DNA of 60,351 nt from Paracoccaceae bacterium (GTDB taxonomy: Bacteria; Pseudomonadota; Alphaproteobacteria; Rhodobacterales; Rhodobacteraceae), in the NCBI GenBank assembly GCA_007116575.1, contig SKIF01000009.1:1-60351 (forward strand). Reading direction: 5' to 3'. Positions within the stretch are counted from its first letter, which is position 1; each line of letters opens with the position of its first letter. The notes beneath the pieces are model-generated. The model made no database searches, was not told the DNA's origin, and saw only the letters and a program-made list of their open reading frames with translations. Of the stretch, positions 8,309 through 20,095 are shown one piece after another. The position numbers and the translations under genes were made by a program.

Positions 8309-10030
8309 TCAGACCCGCAGGCGACTGCCGGCATGGCGCGCCTTGCGCGGCTTGCGGATGTGCTCGGCCCCTGGCTCAATGCGATCTGTGCGCGCAAGTT
8401 CCGCCACACCGCCAGCAGGGCGCGACAGGTCTGGGGTCTGGACGAGTTCGGAGTGCAGCGTCAGTTCGGCGGGCGGGATGCGGGCGGGATGCGCGGCGCG
8501 CAGTCCGATCTGCTGGAACACGACCATCAGCGTGCCACCGTTCAACCGCCGCGCGGTGATCCCGAGCATGCCGCCATCCTTACACACGATGGTCGCACTC
8601 AGCCGTGGGGGGGCGCTACTGCCTGCGGGGGTGGAGGCGAATTCGGCCAGGCGCGCCCAGAAGGTGGTAGGCTCGGCCTGCGCCGACCACAGCCGGATCG
8701 CCTGCGCAAGCCCTTCATCGGCCAGATCCGCGCAGGGGTCGGCCTGCCAGAGCTGTGTATAGGCGTCATTGGCCAGCAATGTCTGCCCCGACAGGCCGAA
8801 GGTGATGATCCCGTCAGGGAGACCATCCAGCACCTTGTGCACAGTCTCGATCTCGCTGCGGAAACTGCGGCTCAGCGCTGCCTCGGTTGTCACGTCCTCG
8901 ATGAAGAGCGCAATCGCGCCATTGGGTTGCGGTCGCCCCGTCACATGGAAAGTGCGCCCACCCTCAAGGCACCATTCCTCGGAGTAATCGCCCGTCTCGG
9001 CGGATTTTTCCATCTCGATGATCTCGCGCCGCCAGTTGTTGAAATCCTTGGGCTCGGGCAACATGCGCGCCTCGCGCAGCGCATAGAGCACCTGTTCGAA
9101 ACTTGGTCGTGCAGCAAGAAACTGCGGCTCCAGCCCGGTCATGTCGACCAGCGCGGGATTGAAGACCTGTAGCCGCCGCTCGGCGTCGAACAACGCCAAC
9201 CCGATCTGGAGCGAGGCGAAAGTGCGGGTCAGCATCTGCAGGGTTTCCTGCCGCGCGGCTTCAGATTGCACTGCCGAGTCGATGGGGGTGGCGATATGCA
9301 TGTCGCGCGTGCCCAGCGCGATTCGCGCATAGGTGAACCACGAGGTTTGCTCGGCGATGGACAGCGCCAGACGTTCGGCATCCTGACGGGCAGCCTCGGC
9401 AAAGAGATCGGGCAGCGGCCAGCTTAGCAAGGCTCCCGGATCGGCTGCCTGAAGCCGGTCGATATAGCTGGCATTGGCCCAGACCACCTTGCCCGCCGCG
9501 TCGGTGTGCCAGACCAGCGCCGGGACATGGCGGCTGACCTGGCGCAGGGTCTCGACCTCAGATCTCAGGGCATCGAGGCTAAGCCGGTCGAGCGCGATCA
9601 GCGCCCCCTCGGCGCTTGTGTCGCAAAGATGCAGCCGCGTCAGCCCGTTATGGAATCGCGCCGCAAGGGTCATCTCGTTGTTGTTGCCCCCGGTCAGGGT
9701 CAGCGCCCCCTTTTCGGCCAGTTCGCCCAGCCTGGCCGTGATATCGGGAAAATGGCCGCTCAGGTAGCACAGCAGACGGCCCAGCGCATCGTCCTGGCGC
9801 GCGCGATCCGGTTCGGGCGCGAGCGTGTCGAGCAGGTGCCGGGCCTTGTCTGAACAGTCGATCAGCGTCTCATCGCGAAACACGAACACGGCTTCCGACT
9901 CGGGCATCGGGACTGCGGGTTCACCCCCCGGTCGGACGCGCAGCACCCCGGCGAGGATGGAAAGAACGCCCAGCACGACAAGCGAGGCACTGGCGACAAT
10001 GGTGAGCGCGAGCAGCACAGCATCTGACAT
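8309..10030 (-). CDS. divL: DivL-like PAS-domain membrane protein without kinase domain
   Basis: A 573-residue membrane-anchored sensor. One transmembrane helix lies at about residues 5-28, followed by a PAS-like segment (about 45-140) and three clearer PAS domains (about 165-240, 270-400 and 405-520). The last begins HKVLDGLPDGIITF. The protein ends soon after the last PAS with no HisKA or HATPase region. In Caulobacter, DivL controls the CckA-ChpT-CtrA phosphorelay, and the Rhodobacter capsulatus DivL is described as a PAS protein that affects CtrA-dependent gene transfer agent production. Position next to tsaE supports DivL orthology. The ATG at 10030 follows a GAGAGGA ribosome site by 7 bases. 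A CtrA-type box lies about 55 bases upstream. Orthology is inferred from synteny and domains. Confidence 0.72.
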   Translation of the reverse strand: MSDAVLLALTIVASASLVVLGVLSILAGVLRVRPGGEPAVPMPESEAVFVFRDETLIDCSDKARHLLDTLAPEPDRARQDDALGRLLCYLSGHFPDITARLGELAEKGALTLTGGNNNEMTLAARFHNGLTRLHLCDTSAEGALIALDRLSLDALRSEVETLRQVSRHVPALVWHTDAAGKVVWANASYIDRLQAADPGALLSWPLPDLFAEAARQDAERLALSIAEQTSWFTYARIALGTRDMHIATPIDSAVQSEAARQETLQMLTRTFASLQIGLALFDAERRLQVFNPALVDMTGLEPQFLAARPSFEQVLYALREARMLPEPKDFNNWRREIIEMEKSAETGDYSEEWCLEGGRTFHVTGRPQPNGAIALFIEDVTTEAALSRSFRSEIETVHKVLDGLPDGIITFGLSGQTLLANDAYTQLWQADPCADLADEGLAQAIRLWSAQAEPTTFWARLAEFASTPAGSSAPPRLSATIVCKDGGMLGITARRLNGGTLMVVFQQIGLRAAHPARIPPAELTLHSELVQTPDLSRPAGGVAELARTDRIEPGAEHIRKPRKARHAGSRLRV

Positions 10031-10082
10031 CCAACAGTCCTCTCTGACCTGATGTGGTGCTGCCATCATTGCCAAAGATTGG

Positions 10083-10287: not shown

Positions 10288-12384
10288 TCAGACCTCGGTA
10301 TTGAGGTCCTTGAGCAACCGACCATGGCGGCGCACCTCGCTGAGCACGTCACCGAACGTCTCGAGCCCGCGTGCGCGCAGCATCGGGATCAGCTTGAGGA
10401 AGGCATCCGCTGTGGCGACCGTGTCGCCGATGGCCGTGTGCCGCGCCTCTTCGGGGATGGTAATCCCCAGCCGCGCCGTCAGCGCGTCGAGCGAGTGCTG
10501 TTCAAGCTGGCCATAGACCACCGCCGACAAGAGAACCGTATCGAGCACCGGGTGATCGAAGCGCGCATTCATGCTCTTTTCGTGGCGACGCAGGAATTCC
10601 ATGTCGAAGGGCGCATTATGCGCGATCAGTACGGCACCGCGGGCGAAAGCATGGAACCGCTTGCCGGCTTCGGCGATGGTGGGCGCGCCCTTCACCATGT
10701 CCTCGGTGATGCCATGCACTTCGGTCGAGACCGGCGGGATTGAGCGCTGCGGGTCGACCAGCGTGTCGAACACCTCGCGGCGCACGCGCCTGCCATTGAC
10801 GATCCGCACCCCCGCGATCTGCACAATTTCGTCGCTTGAGGGGGTCAGCCCGGTGGTCTCGGTATCGAACACAACATAAGTCAGGTCTTCCAGACGGCTT
10901 TCCAGAACGCCCGCATTGCGCTCTTTCGACAGCAATTCGAAATCATAGACCACCTCGCGCTCGATGGGCGCGGGGCGCCGCGTGGCGCGGCGGGCCTTGG
11001 GGATAGGCAGGCGCACGGCGCGGCGGCCGTCGTCCAGCGTCTCGGTCCAGGCCTCGGTGGCATGGGCATTGAGCACGGCGCGCGGGGTCAGGTCGGGCAC
11101 GTCCGAGTCGATCGGCTCTGCGAGCCAGGTGTCGAACTCACCAACATGCAGCGCCTTGCCCTGCCAGATCAGGTCGAGTATCGCGCCAGGGCCGTCTTCT
11201 TCGGCCAGCCGCAGGGTGAAGGCATCACCATAACCCTCTTGCGCCAGTCGCACCCCCAGCCAGCGGAACAGAAGCGCCATCTCGAACCCGTCGCAACTGA
11301 GCATCAGGTCGGGGCCTTCGGTCGCGAGCGTCAGTTTTTGCGCATCGAATTGCGCGCTGATCCCGTCGAGCATGTCGCGGGCGCGGATCTCGGTCTGCTG
11401 GCGCCAGTCGAGGCGGCCCTCGTCATAGCGTTGGCTCAACTCGGTGATGGCCGATGTCAGCAGATGCACCTCGGCCAGCATGGCCTCGGTCATCTCGGGA
11501 ACCTGGGCCATCTCGGCATCTTCCGAGACGACGCCGATCACGGTCTGCAGATTGGCCGCCGGGCGGCGCACGCGGTCGAAGAGTTCGGCCAGCAACCCCT
11601 CGCGCGCGGCATGGGTCGCCATGTCTGCGGTCACGTCGCGCAGGGTGAGCACGAAACCGGGGCGACGGTTGTGATCGGTGCGGCGCAGCACGCGCATGCG
11701 GCCCTGCAACAAGCGCCCGCTGCCAGTGGTGGCGCAGATCAGGTCAGAGGCGGCCTCGGGGTCATCGAGCGTGCTCAGCCGCTGATAGGCATGGCGCACC
11801 GGGCCTTCGCGCAGATAGTCGAGCAGGTTGCGGTCCAGCCCCGGCGCGCCCCCGGCCTCGAGAATCGTCACGGCCTGCCCGTTATAAAAGACAAGCTGAT
11901 AATCCGCGGTGCAAAGCAGCACCGCCACCGGGACATCCGCCAGCAGCTTTTCCAGCCGTGCTTTCTCGGATGACAACCGCGAGGTCTCGCGTGCGACCGA
12001 CTCGGCCAGCGCCGAACGGGTGGCGGCCAGGGTCTTCGTGATCTCGGAGGCAGCCGGGGCCAGATCGCCCAGATAGCGGGCATGTACGCGCTCGTCGCGG
12101 ATGTCATCGCCCACGTCATTATGCGCGCGGGTGCGGATTGCATTGGCCAGCCGGTTGATGGCGCGGGCCACGTTCATGTCGAAGAGATACCAGATGCCCG
12201 TGACCAGAAACAGGATCAGGAATCCGCCCAGGAGCCCCGCCTGCACCATCGCATCCAAAAGCCCCGGCACGTCAGAGCGCGCCAAGACCAGCCAGCCGCC
12301 TACCACCATCGCGCCTATGGCCCCGAGACCCAGGGCTGCGAAGAACAGCAGGATGCGCAGGCGCAGGCTGAGGCGCTCAAGCAT
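10288..12384 (-). CDS. Membrane PAS/pseudo-histidine-kinase fused to a DnaQ-type 3'-5' exonuclease
   Basis: The 698-residue protein begins with two transmembrane helices (about 10-34 and 47-68), a HAMP-like linker and coiled coil (70-150), then a PAS domain (about 145-250). Residues 255-330 resemble a histidine kinase dimerisation helix, but the phospho-acceptor His is replaced: the aligned motif is FDRVRRPA with Asp270 at the His position. The following ATPase-like region (about 335-460) lacks N- and G-boxes. Residues 500-690 are a complete DEDDh exonuclease: VVFDTETTGL (Asp507, Glu509), AHNAPFD (Asp594) and HTAIGD (His649, Asp654). So the sensor keeps its input and membrane parts, has lost kinase residues, and ends in an intact nuclease. 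Its start overlaps the response regulator gene by 8 bases. The substrate is unknown; it need not be the replication proofreader. Confidence 0.88.
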   Translation of the reverse strand: MLERLSLRLRILLFFAALGLGAIGAMVVGGWLVLARSDVPGLLDAMVQAGLLGGFLILFLVTGIWYLFDMNVARAINRLANAIRTRAHNDVGDDIRDERVHARYLGDLAPAASEITKTLAATRSALAESVARETSRLSSEKARLEKLLADVPVAVLLCTADYQLVFYNGQAVTILEAGGAPGLDRNLLDYLREGPVRHAYQRLSTLDDPEAASDLICATTGSGRLLQGRMRVLRRTDHNRRPGFVLTLRDVTADMATHAAREGLLAELFDRVRRPAANLQTVIGVVSEDAEMAQVPEMTEAMLAEVHLLTSAITELSQRYDEGRLDWRQQTEIRARDMLDGISAQFDAQKLTLATEGPDLMLSCDGFEMALLFRWLGVRLAQEGYGDAFTLRLAEEDGPGAILDLIWQGKALHVGEFDTWLAEPIDSDVPDLTPRAVLNAHATEAWTETLDDGRRAVRLPIPKARRATRRPAPIEREVVYDFELLSKERNAGVLESRLEDLTYVVFDTETTGLTPSSDEIVQIAGVRIVNGRRVRREVFDTLVDPQRSIPPVSTEVHGITEDMVKGAPTIAEAGKRFHAFARGAVLIAHNAPFDMEFLRRHEKSMNARFDHPVLDTVLLSAVVYGQLEQHSLDALTARLGITIPEEARHTAIGDTVATADAFLKLIPMLRARGLETFGDVLSEVRRHGRLLKDLNTEV

Positions 12385-12808
12385 CAGCGATACCTTCGGT
12401 CGAAGGAGACGGCACCTCGCTACGCGGCACCGACAGGATCTTGCGCACCTCCTCGCGCAATTCCTTCAGCTCGAAAGGCTTCGAGATGAACCCGTCCGCC
12501 CCCATCGCCAACCCCTTGCGCCGCTCCATGGCCGAGCCGCGCGCGGTCATCATCAGAATGCGCACCAGCCCGCAATCCGGGTCGGCGCGTACACTCTGGC
12601 AGATCTCATATCCCGATACCTCTGGCAGCATCACATCGAGAAGCACCAGATCGGGCTTGCGTTCGCGGATCATCTCGACCGCCCCCGCGCCAGTGGCCAG
12701 CCGGGTCTGGGCATAACCCTCGCGGGTCAGCAGGTAGTTTAGGGCGATGGCGATGTTGTCCTCATCCTCGACGACGAGTATTTCAGCCTTGCGCGCTGTC
12801 TCCTCCAT
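12377..12808 (-). CDS. Single-domain (receiver-only) response regulator
   Basis: A 143-residue CheY-like receiver with no DNA-binding output domain. Acidic pocket residues are in VVEDED (about 13-16), the phospho-acceptor is Asp58 in LVLLDVMLP, the switch Thr is in MMTARG, and the conserved Lys is in SKPFE. The ATG at 12808 follows GGAGGAGG by a good distance and is preferred over an ATG seven codons upstream. The gene overlaps the preceding membrane-protein gene by 26 bases and the exonuclease fusion by 8, so the three are translationally coupled. Because the partner's kinase residues are lost, the phosphate donor is probably another kinase. Confidence 0.92.
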   Translation of the reverse strand: MEETARKAEILVVEDEDNIAIALNYLLTREGYAQTRLATGAGAVEMIRERKPDLVLLDVMLPEVSGYEICQSVRADPDCGLVRILMMTARGSAMERRKGLAMGADGFISKPFELKELREEVRKILSVPRSEVPSPSTEGIADA

Positions 12809-13331
12809 GTGTTCCTCCTCCACAGGCAATTCTCAGAAATGGATCCTCGGGGGCCAGAGCATACCAGTCGGCGCTCTCGGCGACGCTCTCCGGATCCAGC
12901 CGCGAGCCCTCTGTGACATCCGCACGCCGCGAATTGGCGCAGTCAAAGATCGACTGAAACCCCATGGTCAGCGCCCAGCGTTCCTGCAAGATGACGCCGG
13001 TCAGCACCAGATCGGGATTGGACGCGTGGCGCTGACGGATGCGATTATCGACCGCGATAATCCGATTGGTCAGCGGCACCGCATAGGTCCAGGGCCGAAA
13101 CCAGCTTGTGTGCTGATTGCGGCTGACCACGACAACATCTTCGGGCAACCCGGCCTCAAAGCGGGGCGCCCATGTGTATTCCAGCCAGATCACCATCGCC
13201 AGCATCGCCGCTGCGACACCTGCGGGCGTCAGCCATTCGGGCAGCCGCCGCCCACTCAGGCGGCGCAGGATCATGGCCACCCCGCCCCCACCAAAGCCCG
13301 CCACGATCACTGCCAGAAATTCCATCAACAT
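12783..13331 (-). CDS. Conserved membrane protein of the acetate-transport operon, function unknown
   Basis: A 182-residue protein with two N-terminal hydrophobic helices (about residues 3-21 and 35-50), the second followed by WLEYTWAPRFEAGLP, and a hydrophilic C-terminal domain. It matches no domain I can name. The soluble part has two Cys residues (in FDCANSR and RIACGGG) that could form a disulfide if it faces the periplasm. It starts 16 bases after the DUF294 gene and overlaps the response regulator, so it is clearly an operon member, and its constant company suggests a role in the transporter or the signalling complex. The topology assignment is inference. Confidence 0.75.
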   Translation of the reverse strand: MLMEFLAVIVAGFGGGGVAMILRRLSGRRLPEWLTPAGVAAAMLAMVIWLEYTWAPRFEAGLPEDVVVVSRNQHTSWFRPWTYAVPLTNRIIAVDNRIRQRHASNPDLVLTGVILQERWALTMGFQSIFDCANSRRADVTEGSRLDPESVAESADWYALAPEDPFLRIACGGGTHGGDSAQG

Positions 13332-13346: not shown

Positions 13347-15179
13347 CTATCCCAGTGTTCCGGTCAACTGCCCCACGGCAGATTGCATCGTGCGCACGAC
13401 AACAAACGCGTCGCGCAAATGGCTGCGTTCGAAATCCGAAAGATCCGAGGGCGCAAGATAATTGTCCGGCTTGCGCCCCATGCGCACCAGATTGGCCTGG
13501 TTCTCGAGCCGAAGATTGGCGATCAGATCATAGGCCTCGATCAGGTCGCGCGCGCCCGAGATCGAGATGATGCCCTTCTCTTCGGCCTCCAGAAGACGGC
13601 TGCGGGTGTTGGCCGCGCTGATCCGCCCGCGCAGCGCATAGACCCGCGCCAGATCGGTCACCGGCACGACACCACCCAGCTTCATGTCGACATGGTTCTT
13701 GTATTCGCCCGAACGGATCGTGGCAAAGCCACGCAACAGGCCCAGCGGCGGCGTGTGCTTGATCGAGTTCGAGATCATATGTGCGACGAAGATCGAGTTT
13801 TTCGATGCTGCCGTGAGCGTTTCCTCCTGCAGTTCGCGGAACAGGCCAACCTGCCCGCCGATGGGGCGCAGGTCGAACATGACCGAGGCCAGCATCTGCG
13901 CCTCAGGCGACGGCGTGTCGATCCAGCCCCGGAAATAGCGCCGCCATGTCCGCACCGGCTGGCACCAGCGCGGATTGGTCGCCATCATGTCGCCGGGGCA
14001 GTAGAAATACCCTGCCGCATCCAGCCCGTCCGAGACAAAGCGCGCAAGCTGGGCGAAGTAGTCCATATCATCGGGCGTCACGCTGTCATCGATGATGATG
14101 CAATTGTCCTGGTCGGAGACCCCGGTCTGTTCCTGCCGTCCCTGGCTGCCGCAGGCCGCCCACAGATAGGGCACCGGCGGCGCGCCCAGCTTCTCTTCGC
14201 CCAGTTTCAGCAACCGGCGCGTGACCGTGTCGGCGATATCAGTGATCAGCCGCGTGACCACCTCATGCGCGTTATGCGCGCCCACCAGTTGCAACAAGAG
14301 CTGCGGAATGCGCCCGGTGACATGGGCAAGATCTTCATAGCTGTCGGACACAGCGGCATCGCGGACAAGCTGCGCCGAGGAAATAGCCTGAAACCGGGTC
14401 AGATCGGTCTGCGTGATCATGCCAAGGAGCTTGCCATCGCGCACCACCGGCAAGTGGCCGATGCGGTTTTCCAGCATCATGTGCAGGATGTCCGAACCCA
14501 ACGACTGCGGGCTGAGCGCAAGGGGATCTGGCGTCATGATCTCGGCCAGTGGCGTGTCGAGCGCGCGGCCCTCGGCCAGAACGCGCGCCGACAGGTCGCG
14601 CGTGGTGACAATCCCCACCAGAGAGTCGCCCTTGACCACCGGCATGCAGGAGATGCGGTTTTCGCGCATCGCCAGCGCCGCTTCCTGCGCTGTGGTCTCC
14701 AGCGAGCCGGTATAGGGCTTGCGTGCCATCAGATCGGCGACTTTCATCGTCGCAAGATCATTCTGACGCCCGAGCTTGTGGGTATTGCCTTGCCCGCGGC
14801 TGAAGAACCGCTCGAAGGCGGGGAAGTTGCCGATCAGATGGCGCAATTCGGCCCCCGGCAGGGCCAACAGAACCGAGTCGGAACTCGCGGTCGCCGTTGT
14901 CACGGCGCGGCCCTCACGCAACAGGCCGCGCTCGCCGAAGGAATTGCGCGGGCTGAGCATCGAGACCAGCGCGCCATTGCTGTCTGTGACCTCGACCGTG
15001 CCGGTCTTGATCAGCCAGACACGGGTTATCGGGTCTCCGGCGGTATAAATGACCGTACCTTGCGCGACTTCACTGCGGCTGAAGCAACCGGCGACACGCG
15101 CCAGCTCGTCCTGCGGCAGGGAATCATAGGGGTGCACGGAGTGCAGGAATTCGATGATCTTCTCGGCGCTCTGGGTCAT
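13347..15179 (-). CDS. cNMP-binding / CBS-pair / DUF294 nucleotidyltransferase-like protein
   Basis: A 610-residue cytoplasmic regulatory protein. A cyclic-nucleotide-binding fold is at about residues 15-130 (TVIYTAGDP, NSFGERGLL). Two CBS domains lie at about 145-265 (VADLMARKPYTG and IAEIMTPDPL-like starts, with PVV and GIVTTRDL/GMITQTDL ends). A DUF294 nucleotidyltransferase domain (about 300-440) follows, then the DUF294 C-terminal domain. The GlnD-type catalytic motif is intact: G344-S345, R348, E350, D356 and D358 in GSQGRQEQTGVSDQD. CBS pairs bind adenosyl nucleotides, so the protein could sense AMP or ATP and transfer a nucleotide to a partner. The ATG at 15179 is chosen over an upstream in-frame extension. 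It lies 82 bases after the symporter gene. Confidence 0.9.
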   Translation of the reverse strand: MTQSAEKIIEFLHSVHPYDSLPQDELARVAGCFSRSEVAQGTVIYTAGDPITRVWLIKTGTVEVTDSNGALVSMLSPRNSFGERGLLREGRAVTTATASSDSVLLALPGAELRHLIGNFPAFERFFSRGQGNTHKLGRQNDLATMKVADLMARKPYTGSLETTAQEAALAMRENRISCMPVVKGDSLVGIVTTRDLSARVLAEGRALDTPLAEIMTPDPLALSPQSLGSDILHMMLENRIGHLPVVRDGKLLGMITQTDLTRFQAISSAQLVRDAAVSDSYEDLAHVTGRIPQLLLQLVGAHNAHEVVTRLITDIADTVTRRLLKLGEEKLGAPPVPYLWAACGSQGRQEQTGVSDQDNCIIIDDSVTPDDMDYFAQLARFVSDGLDAAGYFYCPGDMMATNPRWCQPVRTWRRYFRGWIDTPSPEAQMLASVMFDLRPIGGQVGLFRELQEETLTAASKNSIFVAHMISNSIKHTPPLGLLRGFATIRSGEYKNHVDMKLGGVVPVTDLARVYALRGRISAANTRSRLLEAEEKGIISISGARDLIEAYDLIANLRLENQANLVRMGRKPDNYLAPSDLSDFERSHLRDAFVVVRTMQSAVGQLTGTLG

Positions 15180-15261
15180 GTGTCCGGTCCTGACTGCACC
15201 GCGCGGGAAAGGGGCGGCCTGCCCCCGTAACACGGGGACAGGCCAATGTCGTTGCGCCAGA

Positions 15262-17028
15262 TCAGTGATCGACGGCGGCACCTGCGCCTTTCGGCACGCG
15301 GATCGATTCCACCAGCTCCTGAATTTCGGCAGGGGCTTCCTTGGTGAAGGACAGCGTGATGTAGGCGGCTGCGAAGTTCAGGATCGCACCCACGGTCCCG
15401 AAGGACAGCGGCGAGATACCGAACAGCCAGTTATCCGGCGTGTTGGGCAGCATGTTGGTGCCGGGGATGAAGAACCAGCCCAGATAGGTGAAGATGTAAA
15501 GCACGGTCGAAAGCAGACCGACCAGCATCCCCACGATGGCACCTGTCGAGTTCATCTTCTTCGAGAAGATGCCCAGCATGATCGCCGGGAACAGCGATGC
15601 GGCTGCCAGACCGAAGGCCAGTGCCACCACCTGCGCGGCAAAGCCCGGCGGGTTGAGGCCCAGATAGGTGGCCAGTGCGATCGCGAAGGCCATCGAGATC
15701 CGGGCGGCCAGCAACTCGCCTTTCTCAGAGATGCCCGGATTGATCATCTTTTTGATCAGATCGTGGGACACCGCCGAAGAGATGGCCAGCAGCAGACCTG
15801 CAGCCGTGGACAGCGCCGCTGCAAGACCCCCTGCCGCGATCAGGCCGATCACCCAGCCCGGAAGCTGTGCAATCTCGGGGTTGGCAAGAACGAGGATGTC
15901 GTTGTTGAACAGCACCATCTCGTTGCCTTCCCAGCCTTCGTCAATCGCACGCTGGGGCGGGTTGGCCGCGTTGTAGTACTGGATCAAGCCATCGCCGTTC
16001 TTGTCCTCGAAGCGCAACAGGCCCGTCTGTTCCCAGTTGTGCATCCAGTCGGGACGCTCTTCAAAGGACAGCGGCTCTCCCTGAATGCCATCGGGCCACA
16101 GCGTGGTGATGATGTTCAGCCGCGCCATCGCACCCACAGCCGGAGCGACCGTATAGAGCAGCGCGATGAAGACCAGCGCCCAACCAGCCGAGGTCCGCGC
16201 ATCGGCCACTTTCGGAACCGTGAAGAAGCGGATGATGACGTGGGGCAGACCGGCGGTCCCGATCATCAGCGACATGGTGAAGAGCACCATGTTGAAGGTC
16301 GAGCCATGATTGCCGGTATAGTCGTTGAAGCCCAGTTCCATCATCACTTCGTTGAGCGTCTGCAGCAGCGGCTGGCCGGACTCGGTGTGGGTCGAGAACA
16401 GGCCCAGTTGCGGCAGCGGGTTGCCGGTCAGGTTCAGCGAGATGAACACGGCCGGGATGGTGTAGGCAATGATCAGCACGCAATATTGTGCAAGCTGCGT
16501 GTAGGTGATGCCCTTCATGCCGCCCAGAACCGCGTAGATGAACACGACGCCCGAGGCGATCAGCAGACCCGTGGTGTTATCCACTTCCAGAAAGCGCGAG
16601 AAGGCCACGCCGGCACCGGTCATCTGCCCGATCACATAGGTGATCGACATGACCAGCAGCGAGATCACGGCCACAAGGCGCGCCGTCTGACTGTAGAAGC
16701 GGTCACCGATGAAATCCGGCACCGTGAAGCGCCCGAACTTGCGCAGATAGGGCGCAAGCAGCATGGCCAGAAGCACATAGCCCCCGGTCCAGCCCATCAG
16801 GAAGGTCGAGTTGCCATAGCCGACGGCGGCGATAAGACCGGCCATCGAGATGAACGAGGCCGCCGACATCCAGTCAGCCGCCGTGGCCGCACCGTTGACG
16901 ACCGGGTTGACCCCACGCGAGGCCGCGTAGAAGTCCGAGGTGGATCCGGCGCGCGCCCAGATGGCGATACCGATGTAAAGCGCGAAAGACGCGCCGACGA
17001 AGATGAGGTTGATTGCAAATTGGCTCAT
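15262..17028 (-). CDS. Sodium:solute symporter, ActP-like (VC_2705 subfamily)
   Basis: A 588-residue inner-membrane transporter of the sodium:solute symporter family with about 13 hydrophobic helices. Family signatures include SAASFISMAG, GYVLLAML, LPHVIIRFFTVP and GGLAAALSTAAGLLLAISSAVSHDLI. Its position after acs and adk and with DUF294 and DUF4212 partners suggests acetate or another short carboxylate as substrate. Between two membrane helices (about residues 300-390) is a long polar insertion that includes an EF-hand-like loop, D342-x-N344-x-D346-G347. This two-component arrangement with a small DUF4212 subunit is the VC_2705 type rather than E. coli ActP with DUF485. The gene starts 14 bases after the small subunit. 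The substrate is inferred from context. Confidence 0.9.
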   Translation of the reverse strand: MSQFAINLIFVGASFALYIGIAIWARAGSTSDFYAASRGVNPVVNGAATAADWMSAASFISMAGLIAAVGYGNSTFLMGWTGGYVLLAMLLAPYLRKFGRFTVPDFIGDRFYSQTARLVAVISLLVMSITYVIGQMTGAGVAFSRFLEVDNTTGLLIASGVVFIYAVLGGMKGITYTQLAQYCVLIIAYTIPAVFISLNLTGNPLPQLGLFSTHTESGQPLLQTLNEVMMELGFNDYTGNHGSTFNMVLFTMSLMIGTAGLPHVIIRFFTVPKVADARTSAGWALVFIALLYTVAPAVGAMARLNIITTLWPDGIQGEPLSFEERPDWMHNWEQTGLLRFEDKNGDGLIQYYNAANPPQRAIDEGWEGNEMVLFNNDILVLANPEIAQLPGWVIGLIAAGGLAAALSTAAGLLLAISSAVSHDLIKKMINPGISEKGELLAARISMAFAIALATYLGLNPPGFAAQVVALAFGLAAASLFPAIMLGIFSKKMNSTGAIVGMLVGLLSTVLYIFTYLGWFFIPGTNMLPNTPDNWLFGISPLSFGTVGAILNFAAAYITLSFTKEAPAEIQELVESIRVPKGAGAAVDH

Positions 17029-17042
17029 GGTTCAGATGCCTC

Positions 17043-17297
17043 TCATTCTTCCACGCCAAACTCGCGATCGAGTCTGTTCATGTACGAGCGATAGAAAAAG
17101 ATCAGCACGATGAAGGTCAGGATCGACCCTTGCTGCGCGAACCAAAATCCAAGGTCGGTGCCTCCGACCGGAATACCCGCCAGAAGCGGGCGTAGAACGA
17201 TGCCAAAGCCGAAAGACACCAGCGCCCAGATCACCATGCAGATGGTGATGATGCGCACATTGGCCTTCCAGTAGGCGTCTGTCGATTTGTCTGACAT
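17043..17297 (-). CDS. DUF4212 small subunit of the sodium:solute symporter
   Basis: An 84-residue protein with two membrane helices (about 18-40 and 52-72 after the start MSDKSTDAYW) and the family patterns YWKANVRII, GFWFAQQGSI and FYRSYMNRLDREFGVEE. This family is the small partner encoded directly ahead of VC_2705-type symporters. The ATG at 17297 follows GGAGACGTCAC-type sequence and gives the conserved N-terminus; a longer in-frame version is unlikely. It leads the transporter-regulator operon, with a gap of 165 bases from adk that probably holds a promoter. Confidence 0.9.
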   Translation of the reverse strand: MSDKSTDAYWKANVRIITICMVIWALVSFGFGIVLRPLLAGIPVGGTDLGFWFAQQGSILTFIVLIFFYRSYMNRLDREFGVEE

Positions 17298-17391
17298 GTG
17301 ACGTCTCCCAGTATCCTCCTGCGCCAACCCCCTCATGGGGCTGGCTTCCTCTCACTCCTCCCGACATGCCATCAGACATGACCCGGGGGTT

Positions 17392-17462: not shown

Positions 17463-18131
17463 TCAGTCGGCCACCCCCTCGACGATGGCCGCCAGATCTT
17501 TTGCGATGCGACCAATATCTCCCATCGCATCGACACGGCGCAGCGCGCCTTTGCCCTCGTAATAGTTGATCAACGGCGCGGTCTCCTGGTGATAGGCCGC
17601 AAGCCGCGCACTGACAGTTTCCGCATTGTCATCGGCGCGGCGCTTGAATTCTGTGCCGCCGCATTTGTCGCAGACACCCTCTGCTGCAGGCGTCTTGTGA
17701 CGGTCGTGATATCCCTCGCCACAATTCGCGCAGGTGTATCGGCCCGAGACACGCTCGACCATGGCTTCGTCATCGACCTCGAGCGAGATCGCCGCGCCAA
17801 GGCTCATGCCCAGATCCGACAGCAGCGCGTCGAGCGCCTCGGCCTGTTTAGCCGTGCGCGGGAAACCGTCGAGAATGGCACCCTTTTCCATGTCAGGCGC
17901 GGCCATGCGATCCTTGAGGATCGCCAGCACGATCTCGTCACTGACCAGCCCGCCCGATTCCATCACCGCCTTGGCCTGCTGGCCCGCCTCGGTGCCCGCC
18001 GCCACTGCGGCCCGCAACAGATCGCCCGTCGAGAGCTGCACCAGCCCGAATTGCTCTTCCAGCATCCGCGCCTGTGTGCCCTTGCCCGCGCCCGGAGGGC
18101 CAAGCAGGATGAGAACCGTGGTGTTTGTCAT
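17463..18131 (-). CDS. adk: Adenylate kinase with zinc-finger LID
   Basis: Converts AMP + ATP to 2 ADP in the cytoplasm. The 222-residue protein is of the long type. The P-loop GPPGAGKGTQ is at about residues 11-20, with STGDLLRAAV and DGFPRT motifs. The LID domain carries two Cys pairs (CANC and CDKC) typical of zinc-binding adenylate kinases. The ATG at 18131 (MTNTTVLILL) is chosen over a start seven codons upstream. It begins only 17 bases after acs, so the two are probably cotranscribed. This is functionally logical because Acs releases AMP. In many relatives an adk also sits in the ribosomal-protein operon, so this copy may be a dedicated paralogue. Confidence 0.95.
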   Translation of the reverse strand: MTNTTVLILLGPPGAGKGTQARMLEEQFGLVQLSTGDLLRAAVAAGTEAGQQAKAVMESGGLVSDEIVLAILKDRMAAPDMEKGAILDGFPRTAKQAEALDALLSDLGMSLGAAISLEVDDEAMVERVSGRYTCANCGEGYHDRHKTPAAEGVCDKCGGTEFKRRADDNAETVSARLAAYHQETAPLINYYEGKGALRRVDAMGDIGRIAKDLAAIVEGVAD

Positions 18132-18148
18132 TGTTTCCACCATTGCTC

Positions 18149-20095
18149 TCACGCCCGGTTCATGCGGTTTTCGATCAGGTCATCGACGACGGCCGGCTCG
18201 GCCAGCGTCGAGGTGTCGCCCAGGCTGCCATAATCATTCTCGGCGATCTTGCGCAGGATGCGGCGCATGATCTTGCCCGAGCGGGTCTTGGGCAGACCGG
18301 GCGCCCATTGAATCAGATCGGGCGAGGCAATCGGACCGATCTCGGCGCGCACCCATTTGACCAGCTCCTTGCGCAGCTCATCCGTCGGCTCGACCCCGTT
18401 CATCAGCGTGACATAGGCATAGATCCCCTGCCCCTTGATATCATGCGGGTAGCCCACGACCGCAGCCTCGGCCACGGATTCATGCGCGACAAGCGCCGAT
18501 TCGACTTCCGCCGTGCCCATGCGGTGGCCGGAGACATTGATCACGTCATCAACGCGGCCCGTGATCCAGTAATAGCCATCCTCATCCCGCCGACAGCCGT
18601 CACCAGTGAAGTAATATCCCTTGTACTGGCTGAAATAGGCCTCCTCGAAACGGTCGTGATCGCCCCAAAGCGTACGCATCTGTCCCGGCCAGCTATCCTT
18701 GATGCACAGCACGCCTTCGGCCTTGGTCTCGGTCTGCACTTCCGCCGTGGCGGCGTCGAGGATTTCGGGTTGCACGCCAAAGAAGGGCTTGGTCGCGGAA
18801 CCGGGCTTGTTCGGGATCGCGCCGGGCAGCGAGGTGATCATGTGACCTCCGGTCTCGGTCTGCCAGAACGTGTCAACGATGGGGCATTTCCCCTTGCCGA
18901 CATGGGTGTTGTACCAGTTCCACGCCTCTGGGTTGATCGGCTCGCCGACGGAACCCAAGAGCTTGAGCGACGACAGGTCGTGCTTCTCGACCCACTCGGT
19001 CCCCTGCCCCATGAGCGCACGGATAGCGGTCGGCGCTGTATAGAACTGGTTGACCTTGTGCTTGGCGCAAACCTCCCAGAACCGCCCCGCATCGGGGTAG
19101 GTCGGCACGCCCTCGAACATCAGCGTCGTCGCGCCATTCGCCAGCGGGCCATAGATGATATAGCTGTGGCCCGTGACCCAGCCCACGTCAGCGGTGCACC
19201 AGAAGATATCGCCGTCATGGTAGTCAAAGGTCATCTGCTGCGTCATCGAAGCATAGACCAGATAGCCGCCCGATGTATGCACCACGCCCTTGGGCTTGCC
19301 GGTCGAGCCGGAGGTATAGAGGATGAACAGCGGATCTTCGGCACCGACCTCGGTATAGGGGCAATAGGGCGAAGCTTCGGCCATTTCCGCCTTCATATCC
19401 ACGTCGCGCCCGTCCACCCAGGTGGTCTGGTCGCCAGTATGCTTCACGACCAGACACTTGACCCGGTCCTTGCAGTTGCGCAACGCCTTGTCGGTATTGG
19501 TCTTGAGCGGGGTGCGCCGGCCGCCGCGCGGGGCGGTATCGGCAGTGATCACCGCCTTCGCATCGCAGCCATTGATCCGGTCGGCCAACGCATCGGGGGA
19601 GAAGCCTGCGAACACGATGGAATGGATCGCCCCTATCCGGGCACAGGCCAGCATTGCATAGGCGGCTTCCGGGATCATCGGCAGATAGATCACCACCCGG
19701 TCGCCCTTACCGATACCTTGGTCCTTCAGCACATTGGCCATGCGCGAAGTTTGCTCGAGCAGCTCCAGATAGGTGATGTGCTGCGCCGGTGTGCTCGGCT
19801 CGTCAGGTTCCCAGATGATCGCGGTCTGGCTGCCGCGCGTCGGGATATGGCGGTCGATGCAGTTGGCCGACACGTTCAGGGTGCCATCCTCGTACCACTT
19901 GATATCTACCTTACCGAACTCGAATGTCGCGTTCTTCACGCGAGAGTAAGGCCTGATCCAATCAATTCGCTTGCCGTGCGCGCCCCAGAACGCTTCTGGA
20001 TCGGACACCGATGCGGCATACATTTCTTCGTACTTGGCGCCATCGACATGCGCATTGGCAATGAACTCATCGGATGCAGGGTAGAGATCGGACAT
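18149..20095 (-). CDS. acs: Acetyl-CoA synthetase
   Basis: AMP-forming acetate:CoA ligase (648 residues, usual length) that activates acetate to acetyl-CoA with release of AMP and PPi. Motifs include [14 protein letters not shown] for ATP binding, [15 protein letters not shown] and the C-terminal [11 protein letters not shown], where the Lys is the residue regulated by acetylation in characterised Acs enzymes. The start [10 protein letters not shown] follows GGAGGAGC. It has a long AT-rich upstream region containing a CRP-like palindrome. It is followed closely by adk and then by the symporter operon on the same strand, which makes an acetate uptake and activation locus. Confidence 0.97.

Follow-up and report, generated by a model that had tools for sequence, protein, structure and literature searches.

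A membrane sensor with a dead kinase part and an intact DEDDh exonuclease domain, encoded in an acetate operon beside a DUF294 nucleotidyltransferase

Nucleic acids are the common substrates of DEDDh enzymes, some of which, such as Orn, cleave dinucleotides. The nearest studied gene pair to the one described here is PP_0354/PP_0353 of Pseudomonas putida, which belongs to the MxtR/ErdR (CrbS/CrbR) regulon and encodes a protein with CBS, cNMP-binding and DUF294-type parts together with an RNase_T exonuclease. ErdR binds the PP_0354 promoter according to the accessible part of PMC8402216. In the accessible text of PMC9927547, growth on pyruvate was poor in a PP_0353 mutant and in an actP-I mutant and not in a PP_0354 mutant; the authors, who saw no acetate phenotype by that same text, favoured a role of PP_0353 in mRNA decay. 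For a DUF294-type protein of Pseudomonas, nucleotidylation is mentioned as the predicted mode of action (PMC5715377, excerpt), and DUF294_C is classed with GlnD/GlnE (PMC3710099, excerpt). A further described system is DivL, a pseudokinase in which the histidine is replaced and which binds phosphorylated DivK, without kinase or phosphatase activity as far as the available portion of PMC4211667 goes. No published description of a pseudokinase-exonuclease fusion was found in the open-licence literature searched. We have analysed such a fusion in a 60,351-nt stretch of DNA (the window) from Paracoccaceae bacterium (GCA_007116575.1, contig SKIF01000009.1, positions 1 to 60,351).

Architecture of the fused protein

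The gene is located at 10288..12384 on the minus strand, on which a first-pass annotation of this DNA had been silent, and is an ORF of 698 aa with an ATG start. Residues 1-150 (11935..12384, minus strand) comprise two membrane helices, visible as hydropathy peaks at residues 11-29 and 46-73 and as long helices there in the structure model, and a putative, HAMP-like helix-linker-helix. Residues 151-251 (11632..11934, minus strand) make up a PAS fold. The PAS matches fall below the Pfam cut-offs (PAS_4, 21.3 versus 23.1 bits; PAS, 18.4 versus 22.6 bits), the order of strands and helices at residues 154-250 of the model is PAS-like, and in one relative (L251) the PAS domain clears the cut-off at 29.8 versus 22.6 bits. 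The first-pass annotation had read membrane helices, a HAMP-like part and a PAS part from the sequence; the helices and the PAS part are upheld by these data, and the HAMP-like part is not, as the 698-aa protein has zero Pfam matches to HAMP and the model gives a helix-linker-helix at most. The full-length AlphaFold model (55 rows) has a mean pLDDT of 76.9 and a pTM of 0.35, so that the individual domains are credible and their mutual packing is not.

The next two segments appear to be remnants of a histidine kinase. By alignment, model and Foldseek, residues 252-328 (11401..11631, minus strand) form a DHp-like hairpin without histidine (Asp270), which we propose as the dock of a receiver, and residues 329-470 (10975..11400, minus strand) a degenerate ATP-binding (CA) fold. 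Pfam gave no match to HisKA or HATPase_c in the 698-aa protein at an E-value of 0.1. Sub-threshold likeness to HisKA (E=0.0057 in L189, 0.03 in L244 and 0.14 in L201) and to HATPase_c (E=0.19 in L202) in distant relatives supports descent of this part from a kinase. When residues 255-469 were modelled separately (pLDDT 83, pTM 0.64), the model had the DHp-CA fold of sensor histidine kinases, with 4u7o as the best Foldseek match (E=1.1e-10) and DivL (4q20) at E=2.3e-8; the 50 matches listed were kinases, photoreceptors with a kinase core, DivL, RetS and the hybrid regulator LvrB. The full-length model likewise matched kinases and, in addition, the PolC, DnaQ and DinG exonucleases. At position 270, the 128 loci with an aligned DHp have Asp in 97, Glu in 23, other residues in 8 and His in none. 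An active histidine kinase is therefore rejected, and the earlier reading of a kinase-derived region that has lost its phospho-acceptor histidine is confirmed. The N, G1 and G2 ATP boxes appear to be absent when the alignment is read by eye.

A linker with a conserved YDF motif (residues 471-501; 10882..10974, minus strand), modelled with pLDDT <50 at 470-491, leads to the DEDDh exonuclease domain at residues 502-671 (10372..10881, minus strand), which is supported by Pfam, alignment and fold match. RNase_T matches residues 504-662 with E=2.1e-37 and 129.6 bits against a cut-off of 24, and the nearest solved structures are the exonuclease domains of PolC, DnaQ epsilon and DinG. Asp507, Glu509 and Asp594 are kept in 158/158 related loci and His649 and Asp654 in 157/158, the sole miss being L034, in which these residues lie off the end of a cut contig; since the 158 loci were selected by exonuclease score, these counts show that there is no decay inside the family, not that decayed copies are absent. 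The intact DnaQ-type exonuclease with five catalytic residues that had been claimed before stands in this sense, and catalysis is predicted from it.

Conservation of the fusion and of its operon

Structure prediction and the search for related fusions together describe a membrane sensor/pseudokinase protein that ends in an intact DEDDh domain. A scan of species genomes yielded 180 candidates, of which the best 80 were kept; after choice of the start codon these have 617-710 aa, the protein of 617 being cut. Within the family of the window, matches at 1e-60 occur in 136 of 295 genomes, and 134 of these matches lie in open frames of at least 439 aa. The two exceptions are G320 (a 307-aa frame with the match 159 bases from the contig end) and G544 (238 aa). 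At the level of the phylum, 28 of 299 genomes match the sensor profile and 48 of 299 the exonuclease profile at 1e-33; all 41 exonuclease matches of at least 170 bits are in frames of at least 467 aa. The first-pass annotation had named two outcomes that would weaken the fused-sensor idea, separate genes with independent histories for the two halves and an inactive exonuclease. At the level of sequence neither is seen: the fusion is retained, with 134/136 family matches and 41/41 phylum matches in long frames, and the catalytic residues are intact. A fusion by chance or by assembly is rejected, because the same protein is present in 80 loci (the best of 180) and across classes. From the 136 family matches, 60 were fetched, chosen by frame length before the status of the receiver was known. 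The 158 loci contain four repeats (L027/L253, L028/L254, L065/L255 and L078/L257) and hence 154 distinct sequences. One copy (L021), in a record of Caenispirillum salinarum, shares 76% identity with the 698-aa protein and falls within a set of sequences from Rhodobacteraceae; a transfer or a mislabelled contig are possible alternatives.

The fused gene is the last of the order acs-adk-DUF4212-symporter-DUF294-membrane protein-receiver-exonuclease, all on the minus strand. Acetyl-CoA synthetase (acs, 18149..20095, Pfam) is followed by adenylate kinase (adk, 17463..18152), of which the genome has two full copies, by a small DUF4212 membrane protein (17043..17336; 112.9 bits in Pfam, confirmed in the window only) and by a sodium/solute symporter of the VC_2705 family (15262..17028; NCBIfam TIGR03648, 818 bits). 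Next come a protein with cNMP-binding, CBS, DUF294 and DUF294_C nucleotidyltransferase parts (13347..15281, Pfam), a 182-aa membrane protein (12783..13331) for which Pfam and NCBIfam give nothing above cut-off, and a single-domain CheY-like receiver (12377..12829, Pfam Response_reg), which we propose as the input. The receiver gene overlaps the fused gene by 8 bp, and the gaps between the DUF294, membrane protein, receiver and exonuclease genes of the window range from -47 to 15 bp. Among the 80 loci (the best of 180), counting for each gene only those with enough upstream DNA, the receiver is retained in 80/80, the 182-aa membrane protein in 78/78, DUF294 in 75/75, the symporter in 56/56, adk in 49/52 and acs in 51/52. 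This operon content makes acetate a fair guess for the sensed ligand.

Other observations concern the neighbourhood. The 182-aa membrane protein is also found near the symporter in distant genomes (L174, L178, L185, L196 and L206). Downstream of the fused gene, a PAS-only protein without a kinase domain match is encoded at 8309-10075 (minus strand), beside a gene that we take to be tsaE-like, and in L012 a 569-aa protein of similar length lies downstream of the fused gene. The PAS gene was considered as the missing kinase partner and rejected, the protein encoded at 8309-10075 having no HisKA or HATPase_c match.

Asp65, the phospho-acceptor, and Lys117 of the adjoining receiver are present in 124/124 sequences (123 plus the window). 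Segment profiles applied to the 158 loci gave 123 with DHp and receiver, 4 with DHp and no adjacent receiver (L245, L250, L282 and L291), none with a receiver and no DHp, and 31 with neither; in the 154 distinct sequences the same categories count 119, 4, 0 and 31, and the DHp profile behind these numbers was built from DHp-bearing proteins nearly all of which have the receiver. The kinase part is dispensable: in 20 of 78 additional loci PAS is joined straight to the exonuclease, with membrane helices and PAS retained. By the length of the joint, 20 of the 31 DHp-less proteins have 12-46 residues between PAS and exonuclease; in the other 11 the CA part is still there and just the DHp signature is gone. 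L295 keeps the length of the DHp and not its signature.

On a tree of 90 rows the DHp changes at least 7 times, the receiver 11 times and the CA part 5 times. Supported branches yield five independent pairs that differ in the DHp, in which the receiver changes with the DHp in an average of 4.5 and against it in none (sign test, p=0.0625). When whole genomes were searched for the receiver, three positive controls scored 203-218 bits and the top scores of nine DHp-less genomes were 109-138 bits; in the genomes with L245, L250, L282, L291 and L295 the best receiver reached 105-131 bits. Diverged receivers that do adjoin the fused gene (L244, L272 and L277) score only 80-81 bits against the first profile, so loss of the receiver is firm only near the lineage of the window. 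Adjacency of the receiver extends to the distant lineages L173, L189, L201, L223 and L242. The pseudokinase goes with the CheY-like receiver, a conclusion for which the tree offers few independent events (p=0.06).

Pairing of the exonuclease with DUF294

Judged by gene order, DUF294, a GlnD-like nucleotidyltransferase, is a standing partner of the DEDDh exonuclease. A DUF294 search of the 299 phylum genomes found a match at 0.001 in 226 of them, 220 above cut-off, many being weak and GlnD-like. Among the matches listed, 120 DUF294 regions were fetched by hand and three that were centred on the exonuclease were removed. The resulting 117 regions hold 120 DUF294 ORFs. In 84 of these a separate exonuclease ORF of the same strand is at most 300 bp away, and in 5 the exonuclease and DUF294 are fused in one ORF; a sensor-exonuclease is present in the region in 13, a more distant exonuclease in 4 and none in 14. 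Without the 11 regions that had been picked or widened in the knowledge that an exonuclease was there, the same categories count 84, 5, 4, 2 and 14 of 109. Seven of the 14 ORFs without an exonuclease belong to genomes that have a sensor-exonuclease elsewhere (G270, G262, G093, G121, G097, G034 and G061), and several others sit at contig ends. In two of the fused proteins (L239 and L224) Pfam gives the order RNase_T-CBS-DUF294-DUF294_C. The G-S...D-Q-D motif of DUF294 is intact, with both aspartates (DxD) in 237/238 sequences. Conversely, DUF294 lies within 10 kb on the contig for 36 of the 41 long-type exonuclease matches of the 299 genomes, a comparison made by hand in which nine matches are on short contigs or went without further check and in which the DUF294 place of G077 and G097 is outside the listing or on another contig. 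With two RNase_T matches in the 2.65 Mb of this genome, a rough yardstick used in place of a formal null, chance neighbours should be rare.

Some of these regions have features of their own. In L212, L213 and L221 pairs of DUF294 genes stand back to back on opposite strands beside a symporter-like gene, with an exonuclease next to one or both. The DUF294 frame of L229 is broken into two ORFs by one internal TAG, and an exonuclease adjoins it. Just upstream of the DUF294-exonuclease pair of L147 is a 1152-aa frame with a receiver match, possibly, as a guess, a hybrid kinase of the CrbS type.

In the exonuclease tree the sensor type forms one group (support 90), the DUF294-fused type another (support 97), and the standalone type falls into several, with the DnaQ controls nearer to the sensor type. 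With Orn and one long row removed, all 114 linked exonucleases lie on one side of a branch with support 80 (five controls). Most standalone exonucleases score 34-93 bits against the sensor-type profile, compared with 97 for E. coli DnaQ, 118 for the DnaQ-like protein of this genome and 9 for Orn.

A possible mechanism, its alternatives and known systems

It is plausible that a sensor acts through a nuclease here, and a receiver and a nucleotidyltransferase are now connected with this logic. The reading that we prefer, and in which we place somewhat less than even confidence, is that of a membrane-anchored, receiver-gated DEDDh phosphodiesterase of the acetate operon that would oppose DUF294. 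We assume that the receiver would be phosphorylated by some other kinase and would then dock on the pseudo-DHp hairpin, by analogy to DivK on DivL. The docked receiver and the signal sensed by PAS may alter the shape of the dimer and in this way set how active the C-terminal exonuclease is. The DUF294 protein, GlnD-like and presumably sensing adenylates or cNMP, would install a nucleotide on a protein, for which the symporter and Acs are candidates, or make one as a free product. Hydrolysis of its phosphodiester by the DEDDh domain would restore uptake and activation of acetate or pyruvate. It is possible, and rather doubtful, that this amounts to a two-component-type system with a nuclease output, in which a dead kinase reads a receiver and gates a DEDDh eraser of the DUF294 mark; the same doubt applies, jointly with that statement, to a writer/eraser switch on acetate uptake in which the DEDDh enzyme serves as de-nucleotidylase or messenger hydrolase. 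To our knowledge, de-nucleotidylation of proteins by a DEDDh enzyme has no precedent. The reading also has to face the 14 of 120 DUF294 ORFs that lack a neighbouring exonuclease, the four DHp-bearing proteins whose receiver is not adjacent, and the missing acetate phenotype in P. putida. Some encouragement may be drawn from P. putida: on pyruvate, loss of the putative eraser is harmful, loss of the putative writer is not and the former mutant resembles the transporter mutant, which would fit an inhibitory nucleotide mark on uptake, if an analogy is allowed to an exonuclease that may not be an ortholog.

The same domain could instead belong to a membrane-tethered RNase or mRNA-decay factor that is switched by receiver and PAS and trims transcripts of acetate metabolism. 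The usual action of DEDDh enzymes on nucleic acids and the closeness of the PolC, DnaQ epsilon and DinG domains speak for it, as does the mRNA decay proposed for PP_0353 by the P. putida authors (PMC9927547, accessible text); we consider it unlikely, while giving it real weight, as it leaves the standing pairing and the fusion with a nucleotidyltransferase unexplained. The pairing would be explained equally well if DUF294 made a soluble nucleotide messenger that the exonuclease hydrolyses, in the manner of a cyclase and phosphodiesterase pair. The CBS and cNMP-binding parts of DUF294 proteins and the cleavage of dinucleotides by DEDDh enzymes such as Orn would suit such a messenger; Orn, however, reaches only 9 bits against the profile and DUF294_C is classed with the protein-modifying GlnD/GlnE (PMC3710099, excerpt), and this explanation seems fairly unlikely to us. 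A nuclease of DNA repair or of anti-phage defence is highly improbable. PADLOC does match the exonuclease part with a generic DEDDh model and the candidate defence family PDC-S48 (E=1.2e-39 and 1.4e-30), but these matches span the shared nuclease fold only, and the operon is metabolic (acs 51/52, symporter 56/56, DUF294 75/75).

Another objection is directed at the input rather than the output. The receiver might be unrelated to the fused protein and merely share its operon, DHp and receiver having disappeared from the same lineages in separate, coincidental losses. The small number of supported independent pairs (five, p=0.0625) and the four loci that keep the DHp while the receiver is absent are in line with this. 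Against it, the receiver occurs in 0/31 DHp-less loci, its adjacency reaches distant lineages, and nine DHp-less genomes have no receiver of ortholog score (109-138 versus 203-218 bits), the last point being firm near the lineage of the window only. We regard an unrelated receiver as distinctly unlikely.

Single-domain receivers and pseudo-histidine-kinases often lack a known output, and DUF294 proteins lack an assigned reaction; here one operon joins receiver, dead kinase, nuclease and nucleotidyltransferase. Nature has provided trimmed versions (full, DHp-less and PAS-only), with which the role of each part could be tested directly. Were the writer/eraser reading true, two-component signalling would gain a nuclease output, and DUF294 and its exonuclease partner would gain a reaction across many Pseudomonadota.

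With exonucleases of the DnaQ, PolC and DinG type the fused protein has fold and catalytic residues in common; it differs from these in being membrane-tethered and in having no polymerase, helicase or clamp context. The SSS-STAC kinases CrbS/CrbR (MxtR/ErdR) share with this locus the two-component control of acetate use, yet in CrbS the kinase is active and the symporter is fused to it, whereas the present locus encodes its symporter separately and has a dead kinase. The likeness to DivL-DivK of Caulobacter comprises a histidine-kinase fold without the histidine, PAS and a single-domain receiver as input (PMC4211667, available portion), and the co-occurrence of genes places a phospho-competent receiver with a His-less kinase fold here as well. 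DivL acts on the kinase CckA and not via a nuclease; in our locus the genes of receiver and pseudokinase are neighbours, and docking would follow by analogy. PP_0353 is a separate, soluble-looking protein without sensor, pseudokinase or receiver and may not be an ortholog. What PP_0354/PP_0353 and this operon have in common is a DUF294-type protein and a DEDDh exonuclease side by side, with ActP-type transport and acetate or pyruvate as the setting (PMC9927547, PMC8402216 and PMC5715377, each in its accessible part), and this company of DUF294 is found in 75/75 loci of the present family with enough upstream DNA.
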